A stretch of 64,000 nt of DNA from Patiria pectinifera. Lineage: Eukaryota > Echinodermata > Asteroidea > Valvatida > Asterinidae. Numbering within the stretch: position 1 is the stretch's first letter; each line of letters starts with the position of its first letter. This document shows, piece by piece, positions 6,646 to 41,613 of this stretch. Position numbers and translations under genes: made by a program. Under the pieces are notes generated by a model that saw only the letters and a list, made by a program, of their open reading frames with translations, made no database searches and was not told the DNA's origin. The DNA is taken from positions 1,674,001 through 1,738,000 of the forward strand of contig CM057130.1 of assembly GCA_029964075.1 (NCBI GenBank). Reading direction: 5' to 3'.

Positions 6646-6720
6646 TTTGGCAAATAATCCTGTGAAGGTTGATTTTGCCTATTGCGTGTACTGAAAAGGT
6701 TACGGAATCACGCGGTGTAC

Positions 6721-6726
6721 TTTATA
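6721..6726 (-). promoter_or_regulatory. Candidate TATA box of transporter copy 1
   Basis: On the minus strand TATAAAG lies about 75 nt upstream of the start codon at 6645, a workable distance for a short 5' UTR. At the equivalent place copy 2 (about 13326-13331) reads TATAATG. Motif and distance only; no transcript data. Confidence 0.3.
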
Positions 6727-6729
6727 CTA

Positions 6730-7418: not shown

Positions 7419-7890
7419 ATAAGAGAAATACTCGTTAGGCGTTGGAATATCGACGATGGGTGAGCCCATTGGTATGTCTATGGGCCCATGACCCAGGTAC
7501 TTTTGGACACCTATGGTTGGAGAGGAACCATGCTCTTACTCGGAGGTGTCCGGCGTTTCATCTGGTGCCGTGTGCTATGTTAGTGCAACGGGATCCATCG
7601 TCCTCTTTACCAGAAACTGATCAGTACCAAGAAGTTCGATAAGTGGTTAGGAAGACTACAGCCAGGAAAAAGGAGGAGCCACCGACGACGGAAAATCACT
7701 CTTACCAAAACAGTCGTCAAAGTAGGGCGGGGAAGTGTTGTCTTCATTGAAGCACAAAGTGCTGGCAGATGTGAGGTTCGTTTGGGTGACTTCTGGAAGG
7801 TTCGCTACTTCATTTTCTTTCAGCGGCTTGGTTGGTGTTCATGGTGTCGCACGGGCAACGGGGCCGGAACGAATTTCAGGAGTCGTTTCT
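7419..7890 (+). pseudogene. Transporter exon-3 fragment, inverted, copy 1
   Basis: Reads as the transporter's exon 3 from about the TM5 signature (aagagaaatactcgtta) through STMGEP, DTYGWRGTMLLL and the SSLPETDQYQEV loop, then decays with frameshifts (after MGEPIGM, in the acidic loop) and stops near 7890. It lies opposite to the intact gene. The same fragment recurs at 14208-15290, so it existed before the segmental duplication. No start, no complete frame, so not a functional gene. Confidence 0.8.
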
Positions 7891-8112
7891 TCATTTGAGC
7901 TCAACTGAGCTCATTTCGATCCAGTGTAGCAATTTGTACAGTGTTGAAATGGTAACTGGGATTCAAATCAACAGCACCCTAATGTATTTAGCATAAAATT
8001 AAAATCAATATTTTCTCTGGGGCTCCCGTAAAAATGATTTTTGTTTTACCCCTTTGTTATCTGTCTTGAGTAAAATCCCAACAACAGTCACCAAAATATA
8101 TGTATACACTGT

Positions 8113-9787: not shown

Positions 9788-9935
9788 AGATGTGTGGTTC
9801 TGAAATAACCGGTCGGGCTGTAAACTCGACGTTCCGATCAGTAGGCTTATGGTCTTCTTTTCCTGAAAACGATCGGAGCACACTGATCGGAACGAGTTCA
9901 TTGAAGCAACCGGTTCTTTTCAGAACCACACATCT
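9788..9935. repeat. Imperfect inverted repeat (hairpin)
   Basis: AGATGTGTGGTTCTGAAATA at the left pairs with the reverse complement of the right arm ending cagaaccacacatct. The inner parts (accggt, actcg, ttccgatcagt) also pair with interruptions. Probably a short foldback element; no clear target duplication was found. Confidence 0.5.
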
Positions 9936-10129
9936 CCTCACAAGAGATTCTTCAACATACCAAAACCCCTCACCAATTTACACTGAGCCATGCAAAGTGT
10001 TGCTATGTTTTTATGCATTATTTTCCTTTTTTTGCGGTCCAAGACGGGGGTTTACCACCCCCCCCCCCCGAAAAAAGGACCCTATCTAAGTGCGCTCCGA
10101 TTTCTGGTATTTACAAAATATATTGTTTC

Positions 10130-10760
10130 GGAAAGGCGGAGCATTGCGGACAGCTGGTGTATCAACATGCTGAGATCAACGCAGTGCTATCCGGCATTGC
10201 CCCCCCCCCCCCAGCGCTCCGCAGAGAACATCATATGCACGTGCTGGCGGAGAAGGCCTCCCAAGATGACAATCACATTCTGCACGAGTGCATCAAGGCT
10301 GCTGAAGATCTCGGCAGAAAACGCCTCAGCTCTCGTCACCCCTTCGGCCGTCATGCAGTCTCCCCCGAGTGTTCCAACTTCAACCTCATGGAACAATGGG
10401 AAAGCAACTGGCAAGAGACTGAGAGACCAATCCAGTTCGCCACCCCTCCGAGTACTAAACTTCCACCAGGTGCTCACCTCCCCCGCAGAGATTGGGTCAC
10501 TCTCAATCGCCTGCGCACCGGGGTTGGACGTCTCAATGCCAGCATGCACAGATGGGGCTTGAGCCCCTCCGCGGCCTGCGTCTGTGGTACCCCTGAACAG
10601 ACTGCACACCACATCCTGTTTGAGTGCCCGGACCTCGGACCGCCTGGAGATCTCCACATAGATCTTACCAACCCAACCCCGGAGACTGTCACATGGCTAC
10701 ATCAGCTGCACGAAATTGTATAGTGGTCAGCAAATCATACGAAAGAAGAAGAGATCAACG
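10130..10760 (+). mobile_element. 5'-truncated non-LTR retrotransposon (LINE), 3' end of ORF2
   Basis: The open frame ending at 10723 gives the C-terminal region of a LINE ORF2 protein: a SGIAPPPPALRRE block, then a tail with WVTLNRLRTGVGR, MHRWGL and CVCGTPEQTAHHILFECP, the C-x-C-x7-H-x4-C motif typical of LINE C-termini. The frame closes with ...LHQLHEIV and is followed by a short purine-rich tail (acgaaagaagaagag). The reverse transcriptase and endonuclease parts are missing, so this is a dead 5'-truncated insertion. The C tract near 10200 disturbs the frame locally. Confidence 0.8.
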
Positions 10761-10941: not shown

Positions 10942-13250
10942 TTAATTTCCACTTAATGGCACTTTCTTGTTACAGTATCTGGCTTGAACGACTAGGATGG
11001 GAATAGTGAGAAGCGTCACTCCAGCAAACACGCAGTGGGATGAGCTGAAACTCCTCGTCCACTCGTAAAGCCGACCTTGGATGTAAAAATGAATAAACAT
11101 CATAATTATAATAGCCAGTATGTATTGATAAATGTAACATTAATCGTAGGGCCATCAATCCTAATAAAACAACCTGAAGCCTTCAACACTATGGCCTAGC
11201 TTGACAAAAGAGCGAAGTTTAAGAATGTAATAAATGCGTTATGGAGTTAAAGCTACAAGAAGAACATTGAAAGAGTTCGAACCTGCTACCAGTCCACCAA
11301 GCGCTCCAGCTACGCCCATGAAGACTCCTTGCCAGCCTAGTAGACTAACAAACCGGTCATCCGTCGAAAGGGATCTTATCATGACGTCAATTCCTTGGTA
11401 CAACACAGCGAAACCAACGCCAACTAGTCCCGTAACAGCTAACTGCCCGATGAATGGTTTGATGAAAGCCTCTGCGATTAGCGATACACACACGAGGGCT
11501 GCCCCAGAACACGCCCAAAATGCCATGGGCAATTGGATGCCGAACTTCTGCAGGAGGGGCGGTACCAGCTTGCCGACCACGTTGCCCACCCCGAACGCAG
11601 TGGGAAGAAACGACGCCTGGATATTGCTCAGGCCCTGAAACTGCCCGTGCGGCACCATGAACACCAGCCAAGCATTGAAGGCAAACGTGGCTGTGAATCT
11701 CCCGGAAGTCAGCAGAATGAACCTCACATCTGCCAGCACTTTGAAGTCAATTGCTTCGATGAAGAGTTGACAACACCTCCCTGCCTTACTTTGACGACTG
11801 TTTTGGTAAGAGTGCTTTCCCTCGTCGGTTGTATCGCATTCATCTTTCGCGAAATCAGTTCCACCCTGCTCCTGGCTGTAGTCCTCCTCATCACTAACCG
11901 AGACCTCTTGGTACTGATCAGTTTCTGGTAAAGAGGACGATGGATCCCGTTGCACTAACATTGCACACGGCACCAGATGAAACGAGACACCTCCCAATAA
12001 GAGCATGGTTCCTCTCCAACCATAGGTGTCCAGAAGTACCTGGGTTATGGGCCCAAAGATCATCATACCAATAGGCTCACCCATCGTCGATATTCCAATG
12101 GCTAACGGGTATTTCTCTTTGAAGTAAGAGGCCATTACAGCCCAACTGATGTTCCAATAAAGCGAAGATCCGACACCTGTAAGAACAAAGATTAAAATAA
12201 CTTAAATGCAAAAAAAAACATAAGCAAGTGGGGCGCTCTAATGATCATAAGTATTTCAGGTGACTATTCACTGGAAGTCTGCTGTGCATGGTTCTCCCAT
12301 GGGCTGCGTTTAACCCATTCATTGGCGTAAAACTTTAGGGTAATCCTACAAGATAGCACTGCTCGGTTTACAAGTTATAGACTGCAGTCAGTTAGTGAGT
12401 CGGTAAGTCAGGTAAAGAAGACCATAGGCTGGCCGTCAGTGGGACCATCACAAACTACATTTTGATAACCGTTGAAAGATGTCCATTACCTGAAAGTCCA
12501 ACGGTGAACACGGATAAGAGAGGAACTGTGGTTGAGACTGACGTCAAGATGATGCCGGAGGTATACAGAAACCCACCGAATACCATCATAGCACGGGCGC
12601 CAAGCAGACGGGACAAAGCTCCTGCAACAGGTCCTAAAGGTACAAAACCAACATAATGGGTCGTATGTATAAAAACTAGCATTTGCTTTTACTACGCATT
12701 TTTAAGCATTTACTTGCATTTGTATGAATAAAAATGAAGCAAATGCTTAGTACTGGAAAGCATTTGCTGAAAGCTAAAAGTATTTACTTTTTACTTGGTG
12801 TCTAATAAACGCTGAACAGTAAAGGAAATCTTTTATTCATACGAAATCAAGCATTTGCCTTTCCTTAATGCTTCTACTCCAAAGTAAATGCTTTTACTTT
12901 TTGCTTAAACTTCCTAGCATTTACTAGTTTTTTTTTTTTACATACGACCCAATATATAATCAACGAGCTACAAAACGACTTTATAGTACAAAAAAGACAG
13001 AGAAAATCTGGGCAATTTATTCGCTACGCCATTACTGACCGAAGCCATTCTGCACCATGGTGTACAGGACCGCAATCCAGCCGACAAGCCACAGGTCGCT
13101 ATCAAGATCGTTTGTCATCGGAAGCAAGAGGACACCCAACGCTTTCAGATGACCAAACATGACAAAGCAACAGGTGAACGTAACGGCCACCATGACCCAG
13201 CCCCATCTGTCGTTGTCGTAATGGTCAGTGGTAAATCTAGTAGAAGCCAT
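10942..13250 (-). CDS. SLC16 (monocarboxylate transporter)-like protein, copy 2
   Basis: Model: complement of 10942-11075, 11283-12176, 12490-12633 and 13040-13250; same exon lengths (134, 894, 144, 211 nt), phases and 460-aa length as copy 1. The SLC16 TM1 (DRWGW) and TM5 (YFKEKYPLAIG) signatures are intact and there is no internal stop, so both genes look functional. Differences are conservative and few: for example Thr to Cys in TM1 (FTCCFVM region), His to Tyr just before the TM5 block (LYWNIS), Thr to Met in GVFMGVAG, and several changes in the last helix (GVTLLTIPIL). Intron 1 is short (~400 bp against ~2.1 kb in copy 1). Substrate unknown. Close paralogues in tandem suggest a dosage or expression difference, which is inference. 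Confidence 0.88.
12658..12950. repeat. Foldback element with GGGTCGTATG ends, in intron 1 of transporter copy 2
   Basis: Starts GGGTCGTATGTATAAAAACT and ends with its inverse (catacgaccc), flanked on both sides by 'aat'. It occupies the site corresponding to 4380-6107 in copy 1 but lacks the inner direct and inverted copies. An internal T tract interrupts the right end. Confidence 0.65.
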
Positions 13251-14207: not shown

Positions 14208-15290
14208 AATAAGAGAAATACTCGTTAGGCGTTGGAATATCGACGATGGGTGAGCCCATTGGTATGTCTATGGGCCCATGACCCAGGTACTTTTGGACAC
14301 CTATGGTTGGAGAGGAACCATGCTCTTACTGGGAGGTGTCTCGTTTCATCTGGTGCCGTGTGCTATGTCAGTGCAACCGGATCCATCGTCCTCTTTACCA
14401 GAAACTGATCAGTACCAAGAAGTTCGATTAGTGATTAGGAAGACTACAGCCAGGAAAAAGGAGGAGCCACCGACGACGGAAATCACTCTTACCAAAACAG
14501 TCGTCAAAGTAGGGCGGGGAAGAGTTGTCTTCATTGAAGTACAAAAGGCTGGCAGATGTGAGGTTCGTTTGGGTGACTTCTGGAAGGTTCGCTACTTCAT
14601 TTTCTTTCAGCGGCTTGGTTGGTGTTCATGGTGTCGCACGGGCAACGGGACCTGAACGAATTTCAGGAGTCGTTTCTTCCCACTGCGTTCGAGGTGGGAA
14701 CATGGCCAGCAAGTTGGTACCGCCCCTCTTGCATTGAACGGTCGGCACCAATTAGCCCATTACATTTTGGGAGTGTTCTAGTGACCACAAATTTGCAGCC
14801 TTGTGGAGACTCACACACAATAGTGAACAAAACATTGTAAAGGTCTCCACAGGGCAATTTCTATAGATGAATAGGTCTCCACAAGGTTTTCACGAAATAG
14901 ATATATGGGTTTTACTCAAAAACTAGGAATTTCCAAGGTGTGTTTATTTGTCGCAAATGGAAGAGTTTTAGAAAAGGGATATTAATTCCAAATTTCAGCC
15001 CAGGAAACTTATTCTGGTTAAAATAAAAGCATTTTGAAAATTCACTTTCAAAATTGAACACTTTACTACACGGGAACAAAGAAATGTCTCCACAAGGATA
15101 CAAATTTTGGAGTGGGTGCAGCCTCGTGTGTGTATCGCTAATCGCGGAGGCTTTCATCAAACCGTTCATTGGACAGTTAGCTGTTACGGGACTACTTGGC
15201 GTTGGTTTTGTTGTTGCCAAAGGCGTACAAGTGGACGAGGAGTTTCAGCTCATCCTTCGACGGGTCGACGACGACACGTTACCAGTGGCG
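14208..15290 (+). pseudogene. Transporter fragment, inverted, copy 2 (exon 3 and part of exon 4)
   Basis: 14208-14735 matches exon 3 with frameshifts (MTQVLLDTYGWRG, SSLPETDQYQEV, then LVGVHGVARA in a shifted frame). About 350 bp of unrelated sequence follows. 15107-15220 resumes at the TM9-10 region (VCVSLIAEAFIKPFIGQLA) and then jumps straight to exon-4 sequence (tacaagtggacgaggagttt), skipping the end of exon 3 and intron 3. A deletion explains this better than retroposition, because a trace of the intron-3 acceptor (gccaaag) seems to remain. Copy 1 (7419-7890) lost everything after the first block. Confidence 0.75.
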
Positions 15291-15850
15291 TTGCCAAGGT
15301 GGGGGGGGGGGGGCTGGGGGCACGCCCCACCACAAATTCACAGTGCCCTCCTCCCCCCCCCCACGAAAAAATATGATGATCCAATGATCGGTTCAATTGA
15401 GCTCAATTGAACTTAATTGAGATCACTTTCTATTAAGCTCAAGTGAGCTAAACTGCGATCAACTTAAGTAAGTTTTAGATCAATAGAACCCCAAAAAGCT
15501 CTTTTAAGGTCAAGTCAGTTTTATTTAGTTCAACTGAATTAAATTTAGTACAATTTAAGTTCAATTGAGATTTTATTGAGTTCAATTGAGCATAATTGTA
15601 GATATCAATAAAGCCAATTTGTTGCGATTTGTTAGTTAGGTTCAAGCGTGTTCAATAATATGAGATCAACGTTTTATTGAGATGCACTCCGTTCAATCAA
15701 TTTAAATTTACTGTGCTCATTTCGAGCTAATTTGGGCTCAACTGTGTTTTTAATTGAGTTCAATTTAGTATATTTTTGTTTACTGAAATTCTTTTTCGTT
15801 CAATTTCGGAGATCATTTGAGCTCAACTGAGCTCATTTCGTTTCAGTGTA
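15291..15850. repeat. G/C-run element fragment followed by a TTCAATTGAGCTCAA-type degenerate repeat
   Basis: 15295-15380 resembles the GGGCGTCGC-type element (ggcgttgccaagg, G and C runs). From about 15385 to 15850 the sequence is a degenerate array of words such as gttcaattgagctcaattga and ttcaattgag. It is AT-rich, locally palindromic and non-coding. Copy 1 retains only the last few units (about 7900-7920). Confidence 0.55.
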
Positions 15851-19671: not shown

Positions 19672-22600
19672 TTAAACAGCTGTTTCAGAGGACACATCCT
19701 TTGGTGTTGACTTCCTGCCCCTTGTAGCCATGTAAATAACATCCAGGGCCATGGTGAGTATCTTTCGTTCATCTCCATCTGCTACTTTGACCATTTCATC
19801 TTCTTCTGGTTCATCCGAGCTGCCTACAACCCATGCCAAGAAGTTGAACAGCTTCGTTGGGGTAATACGACGGGCATCATCCACGCTCAGGTCAAAGGAT
19901 GTTGGGGGCCATGGGCTGTGGTTAGATGGAATGCTGGCGATGTCTTGCTTAATGTCAAGGGCGGTTGAATAGCGGTCTCGCAAAATGCCGACGCGATTGC
20001 AGGTCCACATGCTGGACTTCCTTGAAGAGGTGGATGACAGCTCATGGGTTTCCTGCATGCCAGAGTCAGAATCAGAATCAGATTCCTCTTCCGTTACAGA
20101 TTCTTTCAGAGTGGCCAAATCTTCAATAAGATCTTCTCTGGTCAAGCTGTCAGCATACACCAACTCACTCAAGTTCATCCTCTTCGATCTCAAGAAACAC
20201 AGCTGTGGATAGGACTTGATCAGTCTCTGCTTGAGGTACACTGCCCTGAATCCTGATGAATCCTGTTCCTCGACTTGCTGTACAGTTCTATCAAAGATTC
20301 TTTTCAGCTTGGTCATCCTGAAGACATTTTTGTCCTGAAAGATTAGCCGATCAATGGTATCTGCGCAGAAGACCTTGAAGGCTTTGTCATAGAGGGGCAC
20401 TGGTGGTGCTCTTCCTTCTGGGTTTTTAGGGATTTTTGTGTAGCTCCTATAGCAGGATCTGTGGTATTTCAGTCCGATTGCTACGCAGTCTTTATTTTCT
20501 ATGTGAAGAAGCAAATCTTCATCTTTCTTCAGCCTAGCAGCCTTCAAAAGAAAACCTCCATCGATTTGTTCACACACTGCTAATGGTTCCTTCCGTCTTA
20601 CACCAGTGTGTCTATCCCTCATGTACTTACTACCTCGGCAAATAATGCAGATGTCTGGCAAAACATGTGAAGACGACGCTATTCCCTCCTGGCTCAATCT
20701 AGACCCGGACCGAAGTAAGTGGCTCTTCTTCATAGCAGGCCCAGATCTGGAATTATCCTTGGCTTTGGAGGAAACACCTTGACTGTCACTGTTATCTAAT
20801 GGGAAGGAATGCACAAAGAGGGAAAAAATTCAATTTAAAATGTATTTTTTTTTGTCAACCATAATGTAAGTGAACCCAATTTAATTAATAAGGAGACAAA
20901 CAAGGTATTTTAATCATGTTAATGTCTAAAGCCACCAACCATTGGAGTTGGACTCATTATTCGTCCCTTTTGCTTTATTCAAGACTATATGTATTTGGTT
21001 ATAAAAATTGGCCATTGAAACAAAAGTTTTAGTCGCATTGATACGCATACATGTACATGCAAGGAACATTGTTGCATGGAAATTACGAAGGAAATTACTT
21101 TTTAAACTGATTGAAACCCAATTATTCTGTGATGTTAAGTTGACCACGAATCATAGAGTAATGTGTAAATCATGTACCACAACCAGAACTTCATAGACTG
21201 GAAAGCACCATCACTATGTGGGTCTGCCACATGCTGTGATATTTCAAATATTGACTGCTTCGAGTGGTGTAGTGAAACTAGCCTCCCGAGGAGATCCAGG
21301 ATTCTATGGCAAAGCCGAGGGAAAATAGAATTCTCCATGGATCACAGAGGGAGAACAGTTTTACTGCATCACAAGATACAGGAGTCAATATTTATAATTG
21401 GTTTATCCACCTCTCCCACAGATTCTGCTTGATTTTAGCGACAATTGATTAATGTTATCTAAATGCAATTAAAATGCACTTCTCCAGTGTTGTAGTACTC
21501 GTACTTGGTACTCGTACTAGAGTACTAGTACTATTGAAGTACTTTTTTAAGAGTATACTAATACTTACTCGTACTCGAATGTCAAAGTACTCGTAGTAGG
21601 TTTTTTGTAGGTGCAAGTTAATGCAACCTGATGCTGCTTTTTTTCCTTCATAATTATCATCACAATCAACACCAGTCATTGCAAAAATGATGAAGATGCG
21701 AAACTGGGAGTAAGAAACATTTCCAATTGTGTAAGAATTAGGCCTAGCCCTAGGCCTACTTAGAAAATGTTTTAGACTCTCCATATAGACTTTGTATGCA
21801 ACCGCTGTAGTGGCATCAGGTTGCAACAATCTTTCCGAATCTTATCTCATCCCAGCTAAGTTACACTGCATAGCAGCCTTATAAATGTGGCCAATTTACT
21901 GGACTACCTCCGTAAACATAGGCCACACTTCCACATGTACAAAAACGTGTCAAACTTTGTCAAATTTTGATTTTCACATTTAGGCTTAGTTTGTAGGGTT
22001 TTTTTTTTTGCTTCAGTTTAGAAGCATTACTCACTCTCTAACTTAGTGCTGCCTTTTTCAGATGTCTAATTTTTGTGAAATTTCATGTTGAAATTTTGAT
22101 ACGCAAACGTGTGCAAATGAATCTGGAAATTTCACGAAAAAATAGACATCTGAAAAAGGCAGCACTTTCTGAATAGCCTATAAAGAGGGTGAGTATGCTT
22201 CTAAAGCAAAAAAAACCCCTAGAAACTAAGCTAAATGTGAAAATCAAAATTTGACAAAGTTCGACACGTTTTTGTACATGTGGAAGTGTGGCCTATGAGC
22301 TACATTGTACCGGTACATGTATGTTTACGGAGGTAGTCCAGTAAATTGGCCACATTTATGGGGCTACAATGATAGAAGAGGGGTTTTCTTACTCCTAGTC
22401 CTAGAACTATGAGCTCCATGCTATGACTGAGGCTCCACGCAGTGGACGTGGAGCCTCATAGTTCTAGGAGTAGGGTTTTCTAAGACACCTTTGATACGGC
22501 CGAATTACCTTTCGCCAGTGACCGCTCGGCCAGAGTAACTGGAGAAGTTTCCGTTGCCTGGTGAATTGAATCAACTTTTTGTTTTTGTAGTTTCTCCACA

Positions 22601-22992
22601 GCATTTATAGCCCTCTTATGAAATGTAGAATCGGTGAAATGAGCGTAGCATTGGCGATGAAAGCCAGCATTTTCAGGAATGGGTATTTCTTCTACAACGA
22701 CATCGAGCGGGTAGGCGTCGAAGAAGCTTTTTGCAACGTGAACTGCTTGCCCGCGCAGACCCGACCATGCCGACGTTACAGATTGGCCCACTTCCTTCCA
22801 TAGCTGCACACTTCGTAGAAAAGTTGCCCACGATCTGTCGCTAGCTGGTCGTATATCTCCGGTACATTTACCAACAGGATGCAAATGTGCGTAACACTTA
22901 AATTTTATACTGGGAATCTTCAAATTACTTGCATTTATTATCACACCGTATTTATCGTCTGGCACACGTCGGTATTTAGCTGGCAACGCCAT
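19672..22992 (-). CDS. Uncharacterised Cys/His-rich protein, two-exon form
   Basis: Model: complement of 19672-20795 and 22509-22992; GT..AG intron, phase 1, 1608 nt, 535 aa. I do not know its function. Exon 1 (residues 1-161) carries CYAHLHPVGKC, GDIRPASDRSW and HRQCYAHF, a Cys/His pattern. Exon 2 carries CIIC (C211, C214), C236, C265 and YHRSC (H273, C276), spaced like a treble-clef or zinc-ribbon metal site (inference). An acidic Ser-rich stretch follows (ESVTEEESDSDSDSG), then a conserved region with HSPWPPTSFDL and LFNFLAWVVGSS. The start at 22992 (MALPAKYRR) was chosen because conserved sequence begins there; an in-frame Met lies upstream at 23049. The paralogue at 24574-33489 has the same ends plus inserted modules. 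Similar proteins, as I recall, occur in several marine invertebrates and usually run on past this C-terminus; both copies here stop at the same point. Confidence 0.72.
21485..21610. repeat. hAT-like MITE fragment
   Basis: Begins CAGTGTTGTAGTACTCGTAC, a terminus style common in hAT-type MITEs (compare 57890-58093, CAGTGTTGTAGTCGAGACC). It continues as gtactcgtac-type repeats. The second terminus is not visible, so it is probably truncated. Lies in the intron of the two-exon gene. Confidence 0.45.
21871..22366. repeat. ~496-bp foldback element in the intron of the two-exon gene
   Basis: Arms pair over ~200 bp: left ataaatgtggccaatttact with right agtaaattggccacatttat. Also gtttacggaggtagtcc, cgtgtcaaactttgtc and gcagcac/gtgctgc blocks occur in both arms. 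A shorter separate hairpin follows at about 22388-22470 (ctcctagtcctagaactatg / catagttctaggag). Neither codes for protein. Confidence 0.7.
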
Positions 22993-24573: not shown

Positions 24574-27500
24574 TTAAACAGCTGTCGCAGGGGACGCATC
24601 CATTGGTGCTGACTGCTTCTCCCTCGTTGCCATGTAAATAACATCCAGGGCCATGGTGAGTATCTTTCGATCATCTCCATCTGCTACTTTGACCATTTCA
24701 TCTTCTTTTGGGTCATCCGAGCTGCCTACAATCCATGCCAAGAAGTTAAACAACTTCGTTGGGACGATACGATGGGCATCATCCACAGTAAGGTTCAAGG
24801 ACGTTGGGGGCCATGGGCTGTGGTTAGATGGAATGCTGGCGATGTCTTGCTTAATGTCAAGGGCGGTTGAATAGCGGTCTCGCAAAATGCCGACGCGATT
24901 GCAGGTCCACATGCGGTCTCTGCTGGACTTCCTTGAAGAGGTGGATGACAGCTCATGGGTATCCTGCATGCCAGAGTCGGAATCAGAATCAGATTCCTCT
25001 TCCGTTACAGATTCTTTCAGAGTGGTCAAATCTTCAATAAGATCTTCTCTGGTCAAGCTGTCAGCATACACCAACTCACTCAAGTTCATCCTCTTCGATC
25101 TCAAGAAACACAGCTGCGGATAGGACTTGATCAGTCTGTCCTTCAGGGACGATGTCCTGTATCCTGATGAATCCTGGTCCTCGACTTGCTGTACAGTTCT
25201 ATCAAAGATTCTTTTCAGCTTGGTAATCCTGAAGACATTTTTGTCCTGAAAGATAAGTCGATCAATGGTATCTGCGCAGAAGACCTTGAAGGCTTTGTCA
25301 TAGAGGAGCACTGGTGGTTCACTTTCTTCTGGGTTTTTAGGAATTGATGTGTATTCCATAAGGCAGGATCTGTGGTACTTCAGTCCGATTGCTACGCAGT
25401 CTTTATTTTCAATGTGAAGAAGCAGATCTTCGTCTTTCTTCAGCCTTGCAGCGGTCAGAAGAAGACCACCATCAATTTGCTCACACACCGTGAGAGGTTC
25501 CTTCCGTCTGAAACCAGAGTGGTTATCCCTCTTGTTCTGAGTACCTTGGCAAATAATGCAGGTGTCTTGCAAAAGGTGCGAAGATCTCGCCGTTCCCTCC
25601 TGGCTCAATCTCGACCCAAACTGAAGTAAAGGACTCTTCTCTGTGGCGGATGCAGAGCCTGAATGATCCTGACTTGCATTACCTAAATGGGAAGGAATGT
25701 ACAGAAGGAAGAAAAAAAATTCAGTCTAGATTCTAGAATTGAAACTTTGTCAATCATATTTATGTGAACTAATTGTAAGGAGAAACAAAAGCACACGCAC
25801 CGAAAACAAGAAAATACATTAGAACTGTTTGCACAAGGTTATTCCGTTTGGAATATATTATGTCAGCCTATCAGCATCTGACTATTTGACAGTGGGTATC
25901 TGAAATGTATTGCGAGACAAAGAGTTTCCTGATTCTAAGTCAAGCTAGTGCCTACTGTGTGATCAGATCCCAAAGAAAACTTCAGAGAAACCCTTTGTCT
26001 AATGGACACCCACCTCTCTTCCGTTCTTCACGTAAGTCGTTCAGTAGATCAGCGAAGTGAGCGACATCGGCCGGGGGGTTAACATGTGTGATTTTTCCAC
26101 CGACTTTGGTGGTCCAACTGATGTGGGCCCCATTGCCAAGACTGATGCTGCATCGGGGTACGTTGTGATTGAAGATCACTCCTCTAATCTGATTGGTCAC
26201 CTGAGGTGCAAGAATGAATATGATTGGTAAACAGGGACAAATATGCAAATAAAAATGTAAAAGGACCCTTTGCAGCCATTGTGGTAGTGCAGTGCTTATG
26301 TTCTGCTTCTATATCCTGATGCTAACATAAGCCCGTGTCAAAGCAACATTAAGAAGGGGGGAGTTAGGGAGAGAAGGGATATAAATACATCTGTTTATGA
26401 ACATAAGTAAGTGACATATTTTCAGGTACTTATAAATTATTTCAAAATTCAAAGAAACTGATGAGGATGCATGATGAATGCTTTTTTTCAATCTACGTTT
26501 ATGCCAATGCTCATGTAGCTTTGTCTGACCGTAGTCCCCGATAGTGGATCACGTCAGAGTCTGACGTGATCCACGATCGAAAAACTTGTCTTCCAAAATG
26601 TGTCCGTGATGTGCTCAACATAGAAACAAGCAGTCGCTGAAGTGAGGGCGCTGTTGACGGTTTGCTCCATGCATTACCATGGTGAGCAAGCATGGCACAT
26701 ATGTCGCAAATGGACAGCTATGATGGAGCAAATTTGACTCAATTGTATTGAAAGGGTTAACTGGAATGCTTCACAACATACCACACATTTTTTGGAGGGG
26801 CCAATTTTGAAATTGACCGAGCAGACCACCTGTCCCGTTGGCGAAGTGGCCAATTCTAGGCTGCCAGTCTTCCAGCTAGCCTGGCCGGTTTCAATGCTGG
26901 TGTACTTGATGCTTCCTTGCACCGTACATAGCGTCTTGTAGTTACCCACGTCTTTGGCCACTGTCGTTGGGTGGGGAGGACTATTACCTACAGAAAAAAC
27001 AATTTCAAAATTGAAAAGTTTAGTGACAACACATTTTCCGGTGTACAATGTATTTCCATGTCATTTCAAAATAAAGACAATGTTTTTGTTGCTTGTTTTG
27101 AGGTTTTACAAATAGAAACATTTTGAAATGTAATTCTTCAACAACAACGTCAAGGGGGTACCCACCCAGGAAGCTCATTGCCACGTGAGGTGCTTGCTGA
27201 TACGTACCACCAGATGCACCAGATCTCGCTGTTTCCTCCTGGCTCGACTCGGTCTTAATTAAAGGACTCTTCTTTGTGGCAGATCCAGAGCCTGAATGAT
27301 CCTGACTGTGCATACCTAAAGGGGAGGAATGTACAAAGGGAAAACAAAAAAATCTGTCTACATTCTAGAATTGAAAACTTTGTCCATCATACTGATGTGA
27401 ACTCAAACAATTATAAGGAGAGAAGATCTATTTTGTTTATCTTTCATCCTAAAACTTGCATTTCATCCAGACTGCTGAATCTACGAATTGTTGGATGATT

Positions 27501-30500
27501 TTTTTTTGCACTCGGTGATGCAAGGTGTACCATAACATTGATAAAAGAGCTGAAACTCACAATTCATTTTTAAAAACAAAAGCAAGAAAGTAAATATAAC
27601 TGTTTGCACAAGGTTATTCAGTTTGGAATATATTATGTCAGCCTATCAGCATCTGACTATTTGTCAGTGGGTATCTGAAATGTATTGCAAGACAAAGAGC
27701 TTCCTGATTCTAAGTCAAGCTAGTGCCTACCGTGTGATCAGATCCCAAAGAAAACTTCACAGAAACCCTTTGTCTAATGGACACCCACCTCTCTTCTGTT
27801 CTTCGCGTAAGTCGTTCAGTAGATCAGCGAAGCGAGCGACATCGGCCGGGGGGTTAACATGTGTGATTTTTCCATCGACTTTGGTGGTCCAACTGATGTT
27901 GGCCCCATTGGCAAGACTGATGATGCATCGGGGTACGTTGTGATTGAAGATCACTCCTCTAATCTGATTGGTCACCTGAGGTGCAAGAATGAATACGATT
28001 GGTATACAGGGACAAATATGCAAATAAAAATGTTAAAGGACCCTTTGCAGCCATTGTGGCAGTGCAGTGCTTATGTTCTGCTTCTATATCCTGATGCTAA
28101 CATAAGCCTGTGTCAAAGCAACATTAAGAAGGGAGGAGTTAGGGAGTGAAGGGATATAAATACATCTGTTTATGAACATAAGTAAATGACATATTTTCAG
28201 GTACTTATAAATATTTCAAAATTCAAAGAAACTGATGAGGATGCGTGATGAATGTTTTTTTTCAATCTACGTTTATGCCAATGCTCATGTAGCTTTGTCT
28301 GACCGTAGTCCCCGATAGTGGATCACGTCAGAGACGGACGTGATCCGAGATCGGAAATTCGTCTTCCAAAATGTGTCCGTGATGTGCTCAACATAGACAC
28401 AAGCAGTCACTGAAGTGAGGGCGCTGTTGACGGTTTGCTTCATGCATTACCATGGTGAGCCTGTGTGGCACATAGGTCGCAAATGGACAGCTATGATGGA
28501 GCAAATTTGACTCAATTATATTGAAAGGGTTAAACTGGAATGCTTCACAACATACCACAAATTTTTTGGAGGGGCCAATTTTGAAATTGACCGAGCAGAC
28601 CACCTGTCCCGTTGGCGAAGTGGCCAATTCTAGGCTGCCAGTCTTCCAGCTAGCCTGGTTGGTTTCAATGCTGGTGTACTTGATGCTTCCTTGCACCGTA
28701 CACAGTGTCTCATAGTTACCCACATCGTTGGCCACTGTCGTTGGGTGGGGAGGACTATTACCTACAGAAATTTTTTTTTCAAAATTGAAAAGTTTAGTGA
28801 CAACACATTTTCCAGTGTACAATGTATTTCCATGTCATTTCAAAATAAAGACAATGTTTTTGTTGCTTGTTTTGAGGTTTTACAAATAGAAACATTTTGA
28901 AATGTAATTCTTCAACAACAACGTCGAGGGGGTACCCATCCAGGAAGCTTATTGCCACGTGAGCTGCTTGCTGATACGTACCACCAGATGCACCAGATCT
29001 CGCTGTTTCCTCCTGGCTCGACTCGGTCTTAATTAAAGGACTCTTCTTTGTGGCAGATCCAGAGCCTGAATGATCCTGACTGTGCATACCTAAAGGGGAG
29101 GAATGTACAAAAGGAAAACAAAAAAATCTTTCTAGATTCTAGAATTGAAAACTTTGTCCTCCATACTGATGTGAACTCAAGCAATTGTAAGGAGAGAAGA
29201 TCCATTTTGTTTATCTTTCATCCTAAAACTTGCACTTTACCCAGACTGCTGAATCTACGAATTGCTGGATGATTTTTTTTTTTTGCACTCGGTGATGCAA
29301 GGTGTACCATAACATTGATAAAAGAGCTGAAACTCACAATTCATTTTTAAAAACAAAAGCAAGAAAGTAAATATAAAGGTTTGCACAAGGTTATTCAGTT
29401 TGGAATATATTATGTCAGCCTATCAGCATCTGACTATTTGACAGTGGGTATTTGAAATGTATTGCAAGACAAAGAGCTTCCTGATTCTAAGTCAAGCTAG
29501 TGCCTACTGTGTGATCAGATCCCAAAGAAAACTTCAGAGAAACCCTTTGTCAAATGGACACCCACCTCTCTTCTGTTCTTCGCGTAAGTCGTTCAGCAGA
29601 TCAGCGAAGCGAGCGACATCGGCCGGGGGGTTAACATGTGTGATTTTTCCATCGACTTTGGTGGTCCAACTGATGTTGGCCCCATTGGCAAGACTGATGC
29701 TGCATCGGGGTACGTTGTGATTGAAGATCACTCCTCTAATCTGATTGGTCACCTGAGGAGCAAGAATGAATACGATTGGTAAACAGGGACAAATATGCAA
29801 ATGAAAATGTAAAAGGACCCTTTGCAGCCATTGTGGCAGTGCAGTGCTTATGTTCTGCTTCTATATCCTGATACTAACATAAGCCTGTGTCAAAGCAACA
29901 TTAAGAAGGGGGGAGTTAGGGAGAGAAGGGACATAAATACAGTCGACTCTTGTTAGTACAAACTCTGTTAATACAAATTCTGGTTATAACAAACATAAAG
30001 CCTTGGTACCGACTGTGAATTTATGTGCACAATGAGTGGGACTGATGTTCCTCTTAATACAAAATTCTGATATAACAAACAATTTGGCTAGGTCTGAATG
30101 AGTTTGTATTAACGAGCCTCGACTGTAAATCTGTTAATGAACATAAGTAAATGACATATTTTCAGGTACTTACAAATTATTTCAAAATTCAAAGAAACTG
30201 ATGAGAATGCATGATGAATGCTTTTTCATAGATACTTGTGCCAATGCCATTAGATTTGTCTAGCCGTAGTGTAGTTGAGATCATCAGATCCATCAGATCA
30301 TCAGACTCTTCAAAATATGTCTGTGATGTGTGTGTGAGCAAAACAAGCAGTCACTCGATCAGGCAGCTGTTGACGTAAGTTTCCATGCATTACCGCCAGT
30401 CGAGCCTGCGTGGCACATAGTACAAATAGCACAGCAGCTATGGAACAAATTTGACTCAATTGTATTGAAAGGGTTAACTGGGATGCTTCACAACATACCA

Positions 30501-33489
30501 CAAATTTTTTGGAGGGGCCAATTTTGAAATTGACCGAGCAGACCACCTGTCCCGTTGGCGAAGTGGCCAATTCTAGGCTGCCAGTCTTCCAGCTAGCCTG
30601 GCCGGTTTCAATGCTGGTGTACTTGATGCTTCCTTGCACCGTACATAGCGTCTTATAGTTACCCTCGTCGTTGGCCACTGTCGTTGGGTGGGGAGGACTA
30701 TTACCTACAGAAAAAACAATTTCAAAATTGAAAAGTTTAGTGACAACACATTTTCCGGTGTACAATGTTGTATTCCCATGTCATTTCACAATCAAAACAA
30801 TGTTTTTGTTGCTTGTTTTGAGGTTTTACAAATAGAAACATTTTGAAATGTAATTCTTCAACAACAACGTCAAGGGGGTACCCATCCAGGAAGCTTATTG
30901 CCACGTGAGCTGCTTGCTGATACGTACCACCAGATGCACCAGATCTCGCTGTTTCCTCCTGGCTCGACTCGGTCTTAATTAAAGGACTCTTCTTTGTGGC
31001 AGATCCAGAGCCTGAATGATCCTGACTGTGCATACCTAAAGGGGAGGAATGTACAAAAGGAAAACAAAAAAATCTGTCTAGATTCTAGAATTGAAAACTT
31101 TGTCCACCATACTGATGTGAACTCAAACAATTGTAAGGAGAGAAGATCTATTTTGTTTATCTTTCATCCTAAAACTTGCATTTTACCCAGACTGCTGAAT
31201 CTACGAATTGCTGGATGATTTTTTTTGCACTCAGTGATGCAAGGTGTACCATAACATTGATAGAGCTGAAACTCACAATTCATTTTTAAAAACAAAAGCA
31301 AGAAAGTAAATATAACTGTTTGCACAAGGTTATTCAGTTTGGAATATATTATGTCTGCCTATCAGCATCTATTTGGCAGTGGGTATCTGAAATGTATTGC
31401 AAGACAAAGAGCTTCCTGATTCTAAGTCAAGCTAGTGCCTACTGTGTGATCAGATCCCAAAGAAAACTTCAGAGAAACCTTTGTCAAATGGACACCCACC
31501 TCTCTTCCGTTCTTCGCGTAAGTCGTTCAGCAGATCAGCGAGGCGGGCGACATCAGCCGGGGGGTTAACACGTGTGATTTTTCCGTTGACTTTGGCGGTC
31601 CAACTGATGGTGGTCCCATTGGCAAGACCGATGCTGCATCGGGGTACATTGTGATTGAAGACCACTCCTCTAATCTGATTGGTCACCTGAGGTGCAATAA
31701 TAAATACAATTGGTTGACAGGGACAAATATGTAGATAAATATGTAAAAGGACCCTATGCAGCCATCGTGGTGGTGCTGTGTTTTTGTATTTTGTTTTTTG
31801 TATTGTACATGTCGTACGGCAAGCCGCTGGCAGCGGCTCGGTGACGTCGCTGTGGATAAACAGGGTATCCCCATGACGTGTGCCTTATCTACATAATTTA
31901 TATCGTATAACCTCTGACCCTAGTTTGAGGCGCTGCCAGCGGCTCTCCATCTCGCCGGAGTCTGCTGCAGGTTATTGTGAGCAGTTTGTTTAATACAGAG
32001 ATACATTTAAAGATGGCGGCGTCCACATCGACACAAGCAATTTATTACGTCCAAACGTGAAAAAAAACCGGTAAATTAAATTCCGCAGCGAAAGAGTTAA
32101 TAGAGAGAAGGGACATAAATACATCTGTTTATGAACGTAAGTAGATGACATATTTATCGGGTACCAATAATTTATGTCAAAATTCAAAGTAGCTGATGAG
32201 GATAACGAAAGCTTTTTCCAGACTACAATGGTGCCAATGTTGGTACAGCTTTCTCTGATGAGTGATGTGACCCACTGTTTGGGTCTTGGGGAGTTGTCTT
32301 TCAACATGTGTCCATGATGTGCTCATCATAGCAAGAACAAGGTTTTGCTCCATATAATCACCACGGTGAGCCTGTGTGGCACATACATGTAGGTCGCGAA
32401 TAGACAGCTACGATTGAGCAAATTTGGCTCAACGGTATTGAAGGGCTAACTTGAAGGCTTCACAACATACCACAATTTTTTTGGAGGGGCCATTGTCGAA
32501 ATTGACCAAGCAGACCACCTGTCCCGTTGGCGTAGTGGCCAATACTAGGCTGCCAGTCTTCCAGCTAATCAGGCCAGTCTCAATACTGGTGTACATGATG
32601 CTTCCTCGCACCGTACATAGAGTCTCATAGTTATCCACGTCGTTGGCCATTGGCGTGGGGTTTGGGAGACTATTATTATTATAACCTACATAAAAAAAAT
32701 AAAAGTTAAGTGACCACCTTTACATATTGATTAGTTAATTCGCAAACAATGAAAAAGAAGCTTTTGAATGTCATGTGAAAATTGCCCATATCTGGCCATC
32801 ACTTGTCACCCTGTGCATAATTCAGCACAAACCCTAGTAGTACATGTACATTTCTTCTCAGTAAATACTTCAATATTTTCCCTGCTAAATTTGACTTTTT
32901 AAGGACATATCACTTTCTGATGGCTAATACTTGATAGGTCACTGAAGGGCAAAATTAGTGATGGCCAGATATGGGAATCTTGCCGTAATGTCCAATGTAC
33001 AAACCATATATTGCATTTTTTAAAACTAACTATCGATACATCATGCACTGAGGCGCTACCTTGCGTCTGTGACTGCTCAGCCGGTGTGACGGGAGGCATT
33101 TCGGTTGTCTGGTTTTGTTGTTTTTGGTCTTGTCTCTCTTGGCCTATATCGATCACTGCGCTCCTGTCATGCCTGTCCAATGAATAAGAGGTGAAAGAAG
33201 TGTAGCATTGGCGATGAAATCCAGCGTTTGCAGGAATGGGCATTTCCCCAACATGCCCAACAACGACGCCGAGGGGGTACTCATCAAGGAAAGCTCTGGC
33301 CACGCGGGCTGCTTCCGGGTACCATACAGGAAGGAATAGATACGAAGCACCGGGTGCAGATACGGTCTTCCACACCTGCACACTTCGTAGAAAGTCTGCC
33401 CAAGATTTATCACTGGCTGGTCGTATGTCTCCTTCACACATACCATCACGATACATGTGTGCATAACACTTAAGTTGTATACTATTCAT
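24574..33489 (-). CDS. Modular uncharacterised Cys/His-rich protein with four internal A+B modules
   Basis: Model (minus strand, 5' to 3'): 33489-33060; A1 32685-32471; B1 31686-31500; C1 31035-30928; A2 30704-30499; B2 29752-29566; C2 29089-28982; A3 28761-28556; B3 27975-27789; C3 27315-27208; A4 26987-26782; B4 26200-26014; terminal 25682-24574. All borders are GT..AG (A exons end GTG|GTATGT, B exons GAG|GTGGGT, C exons GTG|GTACGT) and every phase fits, giving 3444 nt and 1147 aa without a stop. Residues 1-143: CYAHMYRDGMC, GDIRPASDKSW, HRQCYTSF. Modules at about 144-277, 314-444, 481-611 and 648-778: strand-like segments (GSIKYTSIETG, SWKTGSLEL, GQVVCSVNF) then a helix-like end (ADVARFADLLNDLREE). 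C linkers are 36 aa each. Terminal 779-1147 matches the two-exon paralogue (CIIC, YHRSC, WPPTSLNL). Function unknown. An in-frame TGA lies 33 nt upstream of the chosen Met where the paralogue is still coding, so the N-terminus may be shortened. Confidence 0.68.
26014..31035. repeat. ~1.77-kb tandem repeat of exon pairs and introns inside the modular gene
   Basis: Linker exon starts are at 31035, 29089 and 27315 (spacing 1946 and 1774; the first includes a 186-bp insertion, so 1760 without it). Module A starts at 30704, 28761 and 26987 repeat the pattern. Exons and introns are both nearly identical across units 2-4, whereas the first A/B pair (31500-32685) is more diverged and its A exon has nine extra bases. 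Confidence 0.88.
29940..30125. mobile_element. 186-bp pogo/Tigger-like MITE at a TA site
   Basis: Termini CAGTCGACTCTTGTTAGTAC and ...CGAGCCTCGACTG are inverted, flanked by TA on both sides (29938-29939 and 30126-30127). It contains aatacaaattctg / ataacaaa words typical of such elements. The corresponding introns of the neighbouring repeat units (near 26385 and 28160) lack it, giving clear empty sites. Confidence 0.8.
31790..32095. repeat. ~300-bp unit-specific insertion in the intron between modules A1 and B1
   Basis: Sequence from about tattttgttttttgtattgt to ccgcagcgaaagagttaata is absent from the equivalent introns of units 2-4. It contains two related GC-rich words (aagccgctggcagcggctcg and cgctgccagcggctct). 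Unclassified. Confidence 0.5.
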
Positions 33490-35450
33490 CTTCGAATTAG
33501 GCCTACTGGCAAAGTGGCATCACCCGTATTCATCGTCTGTCAGTGAGTGTCAAAATAAATCGCGCGCGAGCTAGCGCAGAGGGCGATCGCGAGCAAGCGG
33601 AGATCCACTTATCCTGCGAACATAATTTGTTCACACAGAGTGGGTATGGAACGCCTTAGAAACAATTTTTGATTTAATACTTTGACGAAGGGAAGCGGAC
33701 AATTTTCAGGAGGAACTCTCAGGATTATATTTTTATTTAGTTTTACCCATCACTGTTTTACGACTATGAATTAAAATTAGTGAGGATGATACCCTAACGT
33801 TAGCAGTAAATTCATCGTTAAAAAAAGTTAGATTGTCGTTCCGCTAGTCCCCCACCCCACAAAACCCCCACAATATTTACTGCTGACCCCAGCTCAGTGG
33901 GATCATCATATATTTTACCGTTACCTCCGCCCAAGGAGGTTATACTTTCATCGGATTTGGGTAGTTTGTTGTTTAGTCTCCCCCTACTCAAAAAGTTATG
34001 GACGAATTTGCATAAAAGAAATGTGGGGGTTGTACTTTGTGCAAGTACTAAGTGATCCGGATCTGGGTCCGGGATTTGTTTTTAGGTTTCTCCACTCCGT
34101 TATGTTTTTTGGTCGTCGTCTCTGCTGCGTATCCAAAGCAAGAGGAATCTGCAAAAGATAAAAGAAATATATCCATATTTTATTTTTTTTCAAATTCGAA
34201 GCACAACCCAACCATCGGATTGAAAAGATATGTCATAAAAAATGATTTTTATAAGTTAATTTTTACACCATGGCTGTGCCAGGTCACGCTCCCCTACGCT
34301 GCTTCTGGTGTGCACGGCTGCCTACGCGCGCCATGTGCCTATACCCCACCCACCCCGCCTTCATCCCACACCTTAACCTGAATCGTAATCTTTCATTTAA
34401 TACAATCATAACTTTGCCTTTATTTGCCTCCTTCCAAACGTCGAATTTCGCTTGTCTCGATCTCGCACCAAGTCTTCTTCAATTCTTTTGAGCTTCAAAT
34501 ACTTCTCACGGTCGGCAATCTATTCAAATCTAAATTTATACAATTATAATCAAAATAATTCAGCTCTCAATACTTTTCTTCTGCTGTCCTCTTGAACTTA
34601 TAATAGCATTTATGATATACAAAATACCCTAAAGCTAATGGTGTAAAGTCCGTTGTTTTGAGCAATTTATACATATTTGAGATCCGTGGATATACATTGT
34701 CCATAAAATGATTTTGGTCCATTGGAATGCCGCCCTATAATACTCTAAATAGTGTGCTTGCATTAAATAATTTCAGGTTTACGATAAAATCCGTTGGCTC
34801 ATTAATATTGTTAACTCCTCGAATTCATGGTGTTCAGCTTTTTCACTAGTTCAGTTAAAATAATTAAATAAGCTCGAACTATTTGTTCTGGTAAATTTTC
34901 AACCAGTAATTTTAATACAATTATAAGAAACAGGCAAACCAAATTCCAAGGAACCCTCCATTCTTTACCAAAATCTAAACATGTTTACTCCAACTTTGAG
35001 TAAACCCCTAAAAGCCCCTGCCTTGTTGGACTGACTTTGAAAGTTTAGCAAAGATGGTGCGCGCACCTGGCCGCACACCGCGCGCGGCCTTTCAACTTTT
35101 CGGCCAATAAGAATCATCGGAGTCTATGAACACGCCCACACTGCGCCAGCCGCGAGGGGCCCACGTGCACTCGGTCTCTCGATTTTGCTTTTGAAACAAT
35201 GCGTGGCAATGCAACAAAAGGCATGTTCATGTATATATTTTTGACGCACAAATTGGCAGGTATTCACATGCCGAATTACTCTAAATCCAGAGGGCTTTCG
35301 CCTACAGGAATGGCATTTCAACGTACAATATTCAGTAATGCAAAAAACAAAATTGAGCATCCTTCTCAGTTGTTGTAGACTAGGCTGACATGTTGTGATT
35401 TTAAACAACATTGCAGGGAGTGAAATGCCAAACAGAAGGTCCCCTGGTCG
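33490..35450. other. Upstream of the modular gene; no further gene established
   Basis: 33892-34085 contains an interspersed repeat (cctccgcccaaggaggttat ... gatccggatctgggtccggg) of a type I recall from many marine invertebrate genomes. 35040-35170 is CpG-rich with a CCAAT word (ggccaataag) and could be a promoter. From 35413 a possible exon (after ttgcag) runs into the transposon. None of these is firm. Confidence 0.4.
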
Positions 35451-35485
35451 TGAAGGTACGAAAGCCCTGTAGTGCCATAGAGATT

Positions 35486-35795
35486 TTTTTTCTCGAAGTT
35501 CGTTTTTAGGAGATTTTTTTTCTCGAAGTTCGTTTTTAGGAGATTTTTTTTATCGAAGTTCGTTTTTACGAGATTTTTTTTCTCGAAGTTCGTTTTTAGG
35601 AGATTTTTTTTTCTCGAAGTTCGTTTTTAGGAGATTTTTTTTCTCGAAGTTCGTTTTTAGGAGATTTTTTTTCTCGAAGTTCGTTTTTACGAGATTTTTT
35701 TTCTCGAAGTTCGTTTTTACTTAGATTTTTTCTCGAAGTTCGTTTTTATGAGATACATTTTCTCGAAGTTCGTTTTTATGAGATATATTTTACGG
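35486..35795 (+). repeat. Left subterminal array (~29-bp units)
   Basis: About ten copies of gagattttttttctcgaagt + tcgttttta, with small variants (agga, acga, atga junctions). The mirror array at the right end is at 40375-40640. Such subterminal arrays often bind transposase (known for other elements; inference here). Confidence 0.85.
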
Positions 35796-35921
35796 AGTTA
35801 AAGTTACGGAGCCCCTAAAAGGACATCCAAAATTATTTTCTTATCTCGTGCGCACGACATAATATCTCGTGCGCACGACATATCTCGTGGCGCACGACAT
35901 ATATCTCGTGCGCATGAGATG

Positions 35922-40104: not shown

Positions 40105-40640
40105 ATAATAAATTATGTCGTGCGCACGAGATATATGTCGTGCGCACGAGATAAATTATGTCGTGCGCACGAGATATATGTCGTGCGCACGAGATAAATT
40201 ATGTCGTTCGCACGAGATATATCTCGTGCGCACGAGATAAATTATGTCGTGCGCACGAGATATATCTCGTGCGCACGAGATAAATTATGTCGTGCGCACG
40301 AGATATATGTCGTGCGCACGAGATAAAAAAAATATTTTGGATGTCCCTTTAGGGGCTCCGTATTTAGGGGCTCCGTAACTTCATAAAACTTCGTAAAAAT
40401 CTCGTAAAAACGAACTTCGAGAAAAAAAAATCTCGTAAAAACGAACTTCGAGAAAAAAAATCTCCTAAAAACGAACTTTGAGAAAAAAAATCTCCTAAAA
40501 ACGAACTTCGAGAAAAAAAATCTCCTAAAAACGAACTTCGAGAAAAAAAATCTCGTAAAAACGAACTTCGAGAAAAAAAATCTCCTAAAAACGAACTTCG
40601 AGAAAAAAAATCTCCTAAAAACGAACTTCGAGAAAAAAAT
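40105..40640 (-). repeat. Right inverted end of the 5.2-kb transposon
   Basis: 40105-40325 holds clean tandem palindromic units (gtcgtgcgcacgagatatat). 40326-40374 holds the ggatgtccctttaggggctc block. 40375-40640 holds about nine ~29-bp units (tcctaaaaacgaacttcgag), the inverse of 35486-35795. The right side is more regular than the left, which has been expanded and invaded by the nested element. Confidence 0.85.
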
Positions 40641-40672
40641 CTCTATGGCACTACAGGGCTTTCGTATGAAGG

Positions 40673-41613
40673 TGAACATGCCACAACTCAAGAAGGTTCG
40701 GATGTACGGGTCTGGAATATGCTGTAGCCCCCTCTATGGCGCGCCTCGGATGACACTAAACTATTGGGCTGAAGCCAGATCAGGGGCATTTTTACCAATA
40801 TCTCATGCAATTCTCTTAAAAGATTTTCACGCAAATAGGACTAAGGAAATCCGTCTTAAGATGTTGAGTTCGGGGCGTATTGAACATCATTTAAAAAAGA
40901 GAACAATGCACTTCGTCCAATTTATTCCTCCATGGTCCAAATGATAAAAAAACGGGCTTCCAGAGCTACGGCTACGTCTATTGTCAGCGCATCCCTGCGT
41001 ATTTTTAATGGGCGCGGACCTAGACCAAGCTCTAGACAGTTGATTCGGATGCAGCCTGATATTGGCATGTGGAGTCACAGCTGGAGCGATGTCTGCATTT
41101 GGAAACATCATATTTTGTCACGTCCGGTCCTCAATGGTACCCGTCATGCAATGACGCTTTTGAACAATATCTGAATGTTTACCAGTTATACTACATGCAA
41201 ACTTGAATGGCGCGCCGGCCGGGACAGCTGTTCGCTACACGGCCGAAAATCAGATTTTTCTCGCATAATCTGCTGTAGAGAGCATTGGAGATCGCTCTGA
41301 TTTTCAGGTTTAAAGGAAACTTGATTTCATACCCTACCTCGACCTAGCTGTCGTGGGAGCTGGCATGTGTCAGTAGCGTTGAAATCGCTTGGATTTGTGT
41401 GAACCAAAATATTCACAAATTGCACGTAGGCCTACGGACGGTGCATTTGCAGTCGACAACCAGACAGCATCGAGAACATCGACAGGCTAGGCGGAGCTGA
41501 TGAGGGCCCTACATAGTATGTGTGCGCTGATTGAGGTAGCGAATTTGTAGCGGTTTATTTTACAACCTTCAGTTCTAATTCTATGGGAATCATCACAATA
41601 GCTGCTTTGCATC
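40673..41613. other. Probable ALS2 upstream region and 5' UTR; no separate gene confirmed
   Basis: An open frame (about 40645-40944) starts inside the transposon terminus, so it is not a real gene as written. 41200-41610 is mixed in composition and immediately precedes the proposed ALS2 start codon, so it probably contains promoter and 5' UTR. No clear TATA box. Confidence 0.35.

Follow-up and report, generated by a model that had tools for sequence, protein, structure and literature searches.

The window, the whole 64-kb stretch of DNA analysed here (contig C2, positions 1674001-1738000), carries on its minus strand a predicted gene of 13 exons that runs from 33489 to 24574. An independent rebuild gave phase-consistent joins into a protein of 1147 amino acids with one terminal stop; all 12 introns are of the GT..AG type (24 of 24 splice ends canonical), and in the seven of 13 exons that were checked (E1, A1, B1, C1, A2, B2, and E5) the frame of the model is the sole frame without internal stops. 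Exon phase is 1 at the start of every A exon, every C exon, and the last exon, and 0 at the A/B joins. The exons and the features associated with them are as follows, the module names anticipating the homology described below.

33060-33489, minus strand: E1, first exon; 143 codons plus 1 base; Cys/His-rich, with a CxxH...C...HxxC pattern
32471-32685, minus strand: A1, putative PH module 1, first half; Met (in PMAND) retained where USP37 has its start codon
31500-31686, minus strand: B1, putative PH module 1, second half; A1+B1 match UCH_N at E = 0.24
30928-31035, minus strand: C1, linker exon; start of a last exon apparently fused to a middle piece of a first exon
30499-30704, minus strand: A2, putative PH module 2, first half; A2+B2 match UCH_N at E = 1.2e-4
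29566-29752, minus strand: B2, putative PH module 2, second half
28982-29089, minus strand: C2, linker exon; last-exon/first-exon fusion as in C1
28556-28761, minus strand: A3, putative PH module 3, first half; A3+B3 match UCH_N at E = 0.0023
27789-27975, minus strand: B3, putative PH module 3, second half
27208-27315, minus strand: C3, linker exon; last-exon/first-exon fusion as in C1
26782-26987, minus strand: A4, putative PH module 4, first half; A4+B4 match UCH_N at E = 0.0037
26014-26200, minus strand: B4, putative PH module 4, second half
24574-25682, minus strand: E5, last exon; second Cys/His segment, CIIC...C...YHxxC, plus remainder
27140-27202, minus strand: first-exon remnant at the start of the C3-A4 intron; matches E1 residues 57-77
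28914-28976 and 30860-30922: further first-exon remnants, after exons C2 and C1, respectively
25990-27099, minus strand: DNA of probable USP37 origin at module 4; reaches from the last part of the preceding intron through A4, portions of the A-B intron, and B4 to 24 bp past B4
19672-22992, minus strand: neighbouring gene with E1-like and E5-like exons; start placed at the first Met, 22992, with an approximate upstream boundary

The tandem-module gene model is borne out by the DNA, and the sequence-only reading described it correctly in its details. That reading had joined 13 exons in phase into 1147 amino acids, as did the rebuild, and had seen four modules of about 130 amino acids with 36-amino-acid linkers; the modules measure 131-134 and the linkers 36 amino acids, and the repeat units recur in the DNA itself at a spacing of about 1.77-1.97 kb. 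Units 2-4 share long stretches that are about 90-96% identical, while A1 and its intron share about 74-84% identity with the other units; taking exons and introns together, units 3 and 4 resemble each other most closely (identical at 377/393 exon and 693/726 intron bases) and unit 1 is the most diverged. The first and last exons, which had been described as the same as those of a two-exon neighbour, are indeed related to its exons (54% and 83% identical, respectively), and a tblastn search at E ≤ 1 found no PH module between the E1-like and E5-like exons of the neighbour. The A1-B1 intron contains an inserted repeat at 31802-32099, which is 81% identical to locus L035 7612-7917 in inverted orientation, and a second apparent insertion lies near 29942-30125 in the A2-B2 intron.

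In Pfam, UCH_N (PF16674) was the single family returned for all four modules (E limit 10 for modules 1 and 2, and 1 for modules 3 and 4), with 11.8, 22.4, 18.2, and 17.6 bits for modules 1 to 4, respectively; the N-terminus of the genome's own USP37 scored 20.4 bits (E 4.7e-4). The curated cut-off of this family is 25 bits, and since none of the five sequences reaches it, the modules and the genome's own USP37 probably represent a divergent branch of the family. NCBIfam gave no match above cut-off. Global alignment to the letters of the human USP37 PH domain, confirmed from PDB entry 3u12, scored 6.6-7.1 s.d. above shuffled sequences for the genome's own USP37, module 1, and module 2, and none of 2000 shuffles reached the score of any of the three; the alignment is good in its first half and ambiguous in its second. 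The structure 3u12 was also found at E 0.06-0.48 in all four PDB sequence searches, run with a single module, with the profile of all four, or with the N-terminus of the genome's own USP37, but ribosomal protein uL2 or internalin A outscores it in three of the four, and these matches, taken alone, are a lead only.

From the profile (below its cut-off), the alignment, and the DNA homology with the genome's own USP37 described below, we identify the module by homology as a USP37-type N-terminal PH domain, a known domain in a new setting. The earlier statement that the module resembles no named domain therefore falls, given the UCH_N matches below cut-off and a donor USP37 gene in the same genome; a profile search of the module, named beforehand as a check that could overturn that statement, assigned it to UCH_N, below the cut-off of that family. 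The accompanying guess of a PH-like fold agrees with the homology to the USP37 PH domain. Unlike in USP37, the domain is present here in four tandem copies, has other flanking exons, and belongs to a gene model without a deubiquitinase domain, since neither E1 nor E5 has a match to the catalytic domain (UCH) at E ≤ 10. Reports of tandem UCH_N domains were not found in the open-licence literature, in searches not aimed at that alone, and neither were mentions of PF16674. An exon-by-exon search of the whole genome with PF16674 yielded two matches, both under cut-off; this search missed the modules and the exons of the genome's own USP37 and is uninformative on further copies. One match, at 63120-63302 in the window (E 0.0255), contains an internal stop in sequence that looks non-coding and appears to be due to chance; the other is on contig C7 (E 1.47).

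A search of the genome itself (613.5 Mb, 1,020 contigs) with module 2 as query yielded 10 matches at E ≤ 0.001 among 14 candidates scored; only the best candidates are scored, and weaker relatives may be missed. Eight of the ten are the A and B exons of the present gene, and the remaining A and B exons lie on the same contig, 2.67 Mb away, at C2:4376483-4377939 (plus strand), where they form the first two coding exons of USP37. Within the 60 kb examined, they are followed on the same strand by UCH-like exons from 4388280 (FSNLGNTCYMNA) to 4398681 (the piece with SHIGSTSSVGHYISDVYD). These catalytic pieces were placed at the locus using what we take to be the letters of the human protein; Pfam UCH is over cut-off in three of the five (E 4.1e-8, 7.3e-7, and 2.9e-15), weak in one (0.0018), and absent from one. 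Judging by these sequence matches, we take this locus as the USP37 gene of the genome. Two similar pieces of catalytic exon occur at L041 761-1021 and about 1175-1228 (QFYDLSLDMPRRR, QFYDLSLDLPRR), possibly an internal exon duplication.

The match between the modules and USP37 is present in the DNA and covers positions 6354-7074, 7090-7126, and 7647-7964 of the USP37 locus (L034), introns and flanks included, with a best E of 2.8e-178; the stretch 7127-7646, within the USP37 intron, has no counterpart at module 4 (25990-27099). The A donor, the B acceptor, and the B donor agree with those of USP37 save for one or two bases in some copies. Because the match extends into introns and into the 5' leader, DNA and not spliced RNA was copied. 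In USP37, the ATG of the PH exon is at L034 6501; its frame, interrupted by a stop a short way before that codon, is open from 6483. From the predicted acceptor to the ATG, the leader counts 31 bases in USP37, which would be out of phase after a phase-1 exon, and 35 bases in module 1 and 26 bases in modules 2-4, which are in phase (all counted by eye). The Met-Ala-Asn that begins USP37 is internal in module 1, and modules 2-4 have Val-Ala-Asn or Val-Ala-Lys instead. The homology over exons, parts of introns, and flanks indicates that the modules share their ancestry with the N-terminal part of a USP37 gene, and an origin of the PH modules from this genome's own USP37 DNA is highly probable.

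The host exons have relatives of their own. E5 matches the genome in at least 77 places at E ≤ 0.001 (111 of 178 candidates scored), a number that includes this gene, its neighbour, and several pieces of single loci; the best 20 were used as loci, and open reading frames containing E5 reach 1357 amino acids. A protein search with E1 gave three matches only (itself, the neighbour, and one locus on contig C22). A pattern search of the family loci added more distant matches, with the E1-type pattern in L013, L014, L022, L046, L047, and L048, which represent three places: in L046 and L047, the E5-type part is preceded at about 1 kb by a separate E1-type ORF, and in L048 both are in one ORF. The window gene thus has in common with this dispersed Cys/His-rich family the E1-type and E5-type segments in the same order, but both the window gene and its neighbour end after the N-terminal part. 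With two family ORFs as queries, no match to the downstream region of the long family proteins appeared in the window: the L043 ORF (1235 amino acids) aligns over residues 14-284 only, and the C-terminal 799-amino-acid ORF of L046 has no match. These comparisons identify the host exons as the truncated N-terminus of a dispersed multi-copy family.

By sequence, the family itself can be called mobile-element-like. DUF6589 (PF20231) matched four of nine family ORFs scanned, at three of six loci, all below cut-off (E 0.0038, 0.027, 0.18, and 0.35), and a CXC domain just under cut-off was detected in one ORF (L048, E 1.8e-4). Adjoining a family member on the opposite strand, an ORF at L048 8419-9240 (plus strand; the same as L022 3123-3944) matches Phage_integrase, a tyrosine recombinase family, at E 6.8e-8. 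The Cys/His modules are probably nucleic-acid- or protein-binding. Structure prediction of E5 with the E5 of the neighbour, in a two-row alignment, gave a mean pLDDT of 38.6 and a pTM of 0.25, and a PDB search with E5 gave an antibody chain as best match (E 0.017) and weaker ones, which we take as chance.

The linker exons combine both ends of the host gene. In the 61 residues of the C exon and its continuation, residues 1-32 match E5 (E 2e-8), residues 32-61 match the E1 of the neighbour (E 1.3e-7), and residues 39-59 match the gene's own E1 (E 1.4e-4); the fusion is also present in DNA (83% over 209 bp and 78% over 65 bp), and the C exon donor (GTACGT) lies inside former first-exon sequence. 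At module 4, 27140 is the last base of the first-exon piece, and the USP37-like DNA begins at 27099, 40 bases on. By these sequence matches, C1-C3 are fusions of host last-exon and first-exon pieces, and together with the junction at 27140/27099 they indicate that a last exon became connected with a piece of a first exon, probably across tandem copies of the gene.

The sequence supports the view that about 1.6 kb of the genome's own USP37, comprising the last part of the intron that precedes the first coding exon, the leader, the start codon, and both PH exons with the intron between them, was copied as DNA between the first and last exons of a two-exon family gene. Since the captured exon pair is symmetric, with phase 1 at both outer sides, the PH domain could be read in frame; the start Met of USP37 became an internal residue and the leader became coding. 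A rearrangement suggested by the joins would then have brought the start of a last exon next to the middle part of a first exon, forming the linker exon, and unequal exchange would have amplified the unit of PH domain plus linker to four PH domains. The order of these capture and amplification events is one that we infer. For the chimeric-gene explanation as a whole, we estimate a probability of about 0.7.

Comparison among the modules supports their coding status, since no indels occur in 392-393 exon bases in any of the six pairs, while the aligned introns carry 3-22. Exons carry fewer substitutions per base than introns in five of the six pairs (modules 2 and 3: 9/393 and 75/742) and almost as many between modules 3 and 4 (exons 0.041, introns 0.045). 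The dN/dS ratio is 0.73-0.81 between module 1 and modules 2-4 and 0.29-0.90 among modules 2-4, and the 0.81 of modules 1 and 2 is indistinguishable from 1 (p 0.65), all from few changes in non-independent pairs in which gene conversion may have mixed copies; a three-sequence split, to which the same applies, gave 1.2 for module 1, 0.49 for module 2, and 0.17 for USP37 plus stem. Between modules and USP37 the ratio is 0.25-0.41, which also reflects constraint on USP37. For E1 and E5 against the neighbour, it is 0.44 and 0.47 (Fisher p 0.00036 and 0.00034). Our reading of these values is that the reading frames of the modules have been kept and that amino-acid constraint on them has probably been relaxed.

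Such values might also be expected if the A, B, and C exons were passengers, that is, a recent and amplified copy of the 5' DNA of USP37 residing in an intron and spliced out or included in minor transcripts, with the gene working as E1 plus E5. The neighbour has the E1 and E5 exons alone, a direct join of E1 to E5, both in phase 1 at the junction, would likewise keep the frame, and the amino-acid constraint on the modules is weak, as in the ratio for modules 1 and 2 and in the module 1 branch. However, all 11 internal exons retain canonical splice ends and frame, and both the indels confined to the introns of the same copies and the lower exon substitution in five of the six pairs are at odds with a passenger status, which we therefore regard as unlikely. 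Several separate short genes, each unit having its own start and encoding a single PH protein, would fit the Met retained at the USP37 start position in module 1, but modules 2-4 have Val there, every B exon runs without a stop into a splice donor, and the linker exons lead in frame into the next module, making this arrangement very improbable. A translated protein from the 13-exon gene is, as judged from its sequence, the likely outcome.

Two further alternatives concern the relationship to USP37, and both are very improbable. Sequence similarity by itself carries no direction, so the tandem gene could formally be the source from which USP37 gained its N-terminus, but the N-terminus of human USP37 contains a related domain (3u12), implying that USP37 very probably had its PH domain before, and module 1 keeps the USP37 start Met inside the protein, so that this direction is hardly credible. 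Kinship of the module with uL2 or another beta-rich fold, in place of a PH domain, is suggested by phmmer (uL2 at E 0.0043 against 0.063 for 3u12, and 0.0025 against 0.21 in a second search) and by NCBIfam (3e-4, yet 20.4 of 265 bits, far under the model cut-off), but it is negligibly probable, as Pfam gives UCH_N as the sole match, the other genomic copy found is trailed by USP catalytic exons, and uL2 is absent for module 1 and for the four-module profile, for which internalin A scored E 0.25 and 3u12 0.48.

Reading the modules as USP37-type PH domains, each would be expected to fold as such a domain. According to one study (PMC12177040), the USP37 PH domain is predicted by AlphaFold-Multimer to bind CDC45, and PH mutants impair chromatin association, deubiquitylation of the stalled helicase, and protection from topoisomerase poisons. 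Of eight positions mutated in that study, W22 alone is securely conserved in the modules; at the other mutated positions, the modules have K at 11 (M in module 1), T at 13, S at 21, and N at 63, and positions 71, 85, and 86 were paired differently by two alignments of the modules to the human protein. The genome's own USP37 differs from the human protein likewise at 11, 13, 21, and 63, and the binding partner may therefore have co-evolved or differ. The study names N13 and K63 where 3u12 has R, so that its numbering may follow the protein of another species.

Repeated modules may reasonably be supposed to bind multivalently, as the sequence-only reading suggested, and four of them would bind the partner of USP37 (in vertebrates CDC45, part of the replicative helicase) more tightly than one. 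A protein without a deubiquitinase domain of its own would tether its Cys/His part to replication forks or compete with USP37. By analogy with USP37, a CDC45- or replisome-related function of a four-PH protein is possible, although we hold it with little confidence. The further proposal that a mobile-element-like gene took and multiplied the replisome tether of USP37, giving high-avidity docking of Cys/His modules at forks or blocking of USP37, is putative and distinctly doubtful.

Exon capture with later multiplication of the captured domain is a known kind of event, of which the present arrangement, built from a known domain, is a new form. SETMAR, CSB-PGBD3, and KRABINER are fusion genes of mobile-element and host domains, named in PMC12062965, and they resemble the present gene, which combines a host domain with a portion of a multi-copy family that may be mobile-element-like. 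Unlike in those genes, the gene of the multi-copy family is here the recipient of the host domain, the donor is traced, and the domain was then amplified. The locus offers a readable case of the formation of a new multidomain gene, in which each element can be located on the sequence: the donor, the copied segment, the conversion of leader into coding sequence, the creation of the linker exon, and the tandem amplification. Should the protein be made, it would be a natural multivalent USP37 PH protein and a test of the binding partners of that domain; the value of the finding hinges on the existence of the transcript.

Elsewhere in the window, two near-identical ORFs of 320 amino acids on the minus strand (2957-3919 and 11239-12201) resemble major-facilitator transporters, a label given from reading, and a decayed, partial third copy is present on the plus strand at 14254-14655 and 15027-15410. 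At 9905-10723 (plus strand) lies an ORF that we take to resemble the end of a non-LTR retrotransposon polyprotein. A tandem repeat of about 30 bp at 35424-35844 and a repeat with a 10-amino-acid unit at 40408-40944 read as coding-like peptides (KKSPKNELRE and FEKKNLLKTN). An ORF of 545 amino acids at 48226-49863 (plus strand) contains RCC1-like repeats, and the exon at 63540-64000 (plus strand), just downstream of the chance-like UCH_N match, resembles a rhodopsin-type receptor, both labels again being from reading. The sole Rfam match is a tRNA gene at 53156-53228 (minus strand, 47 bits), unrelated to the tandem-module gene.
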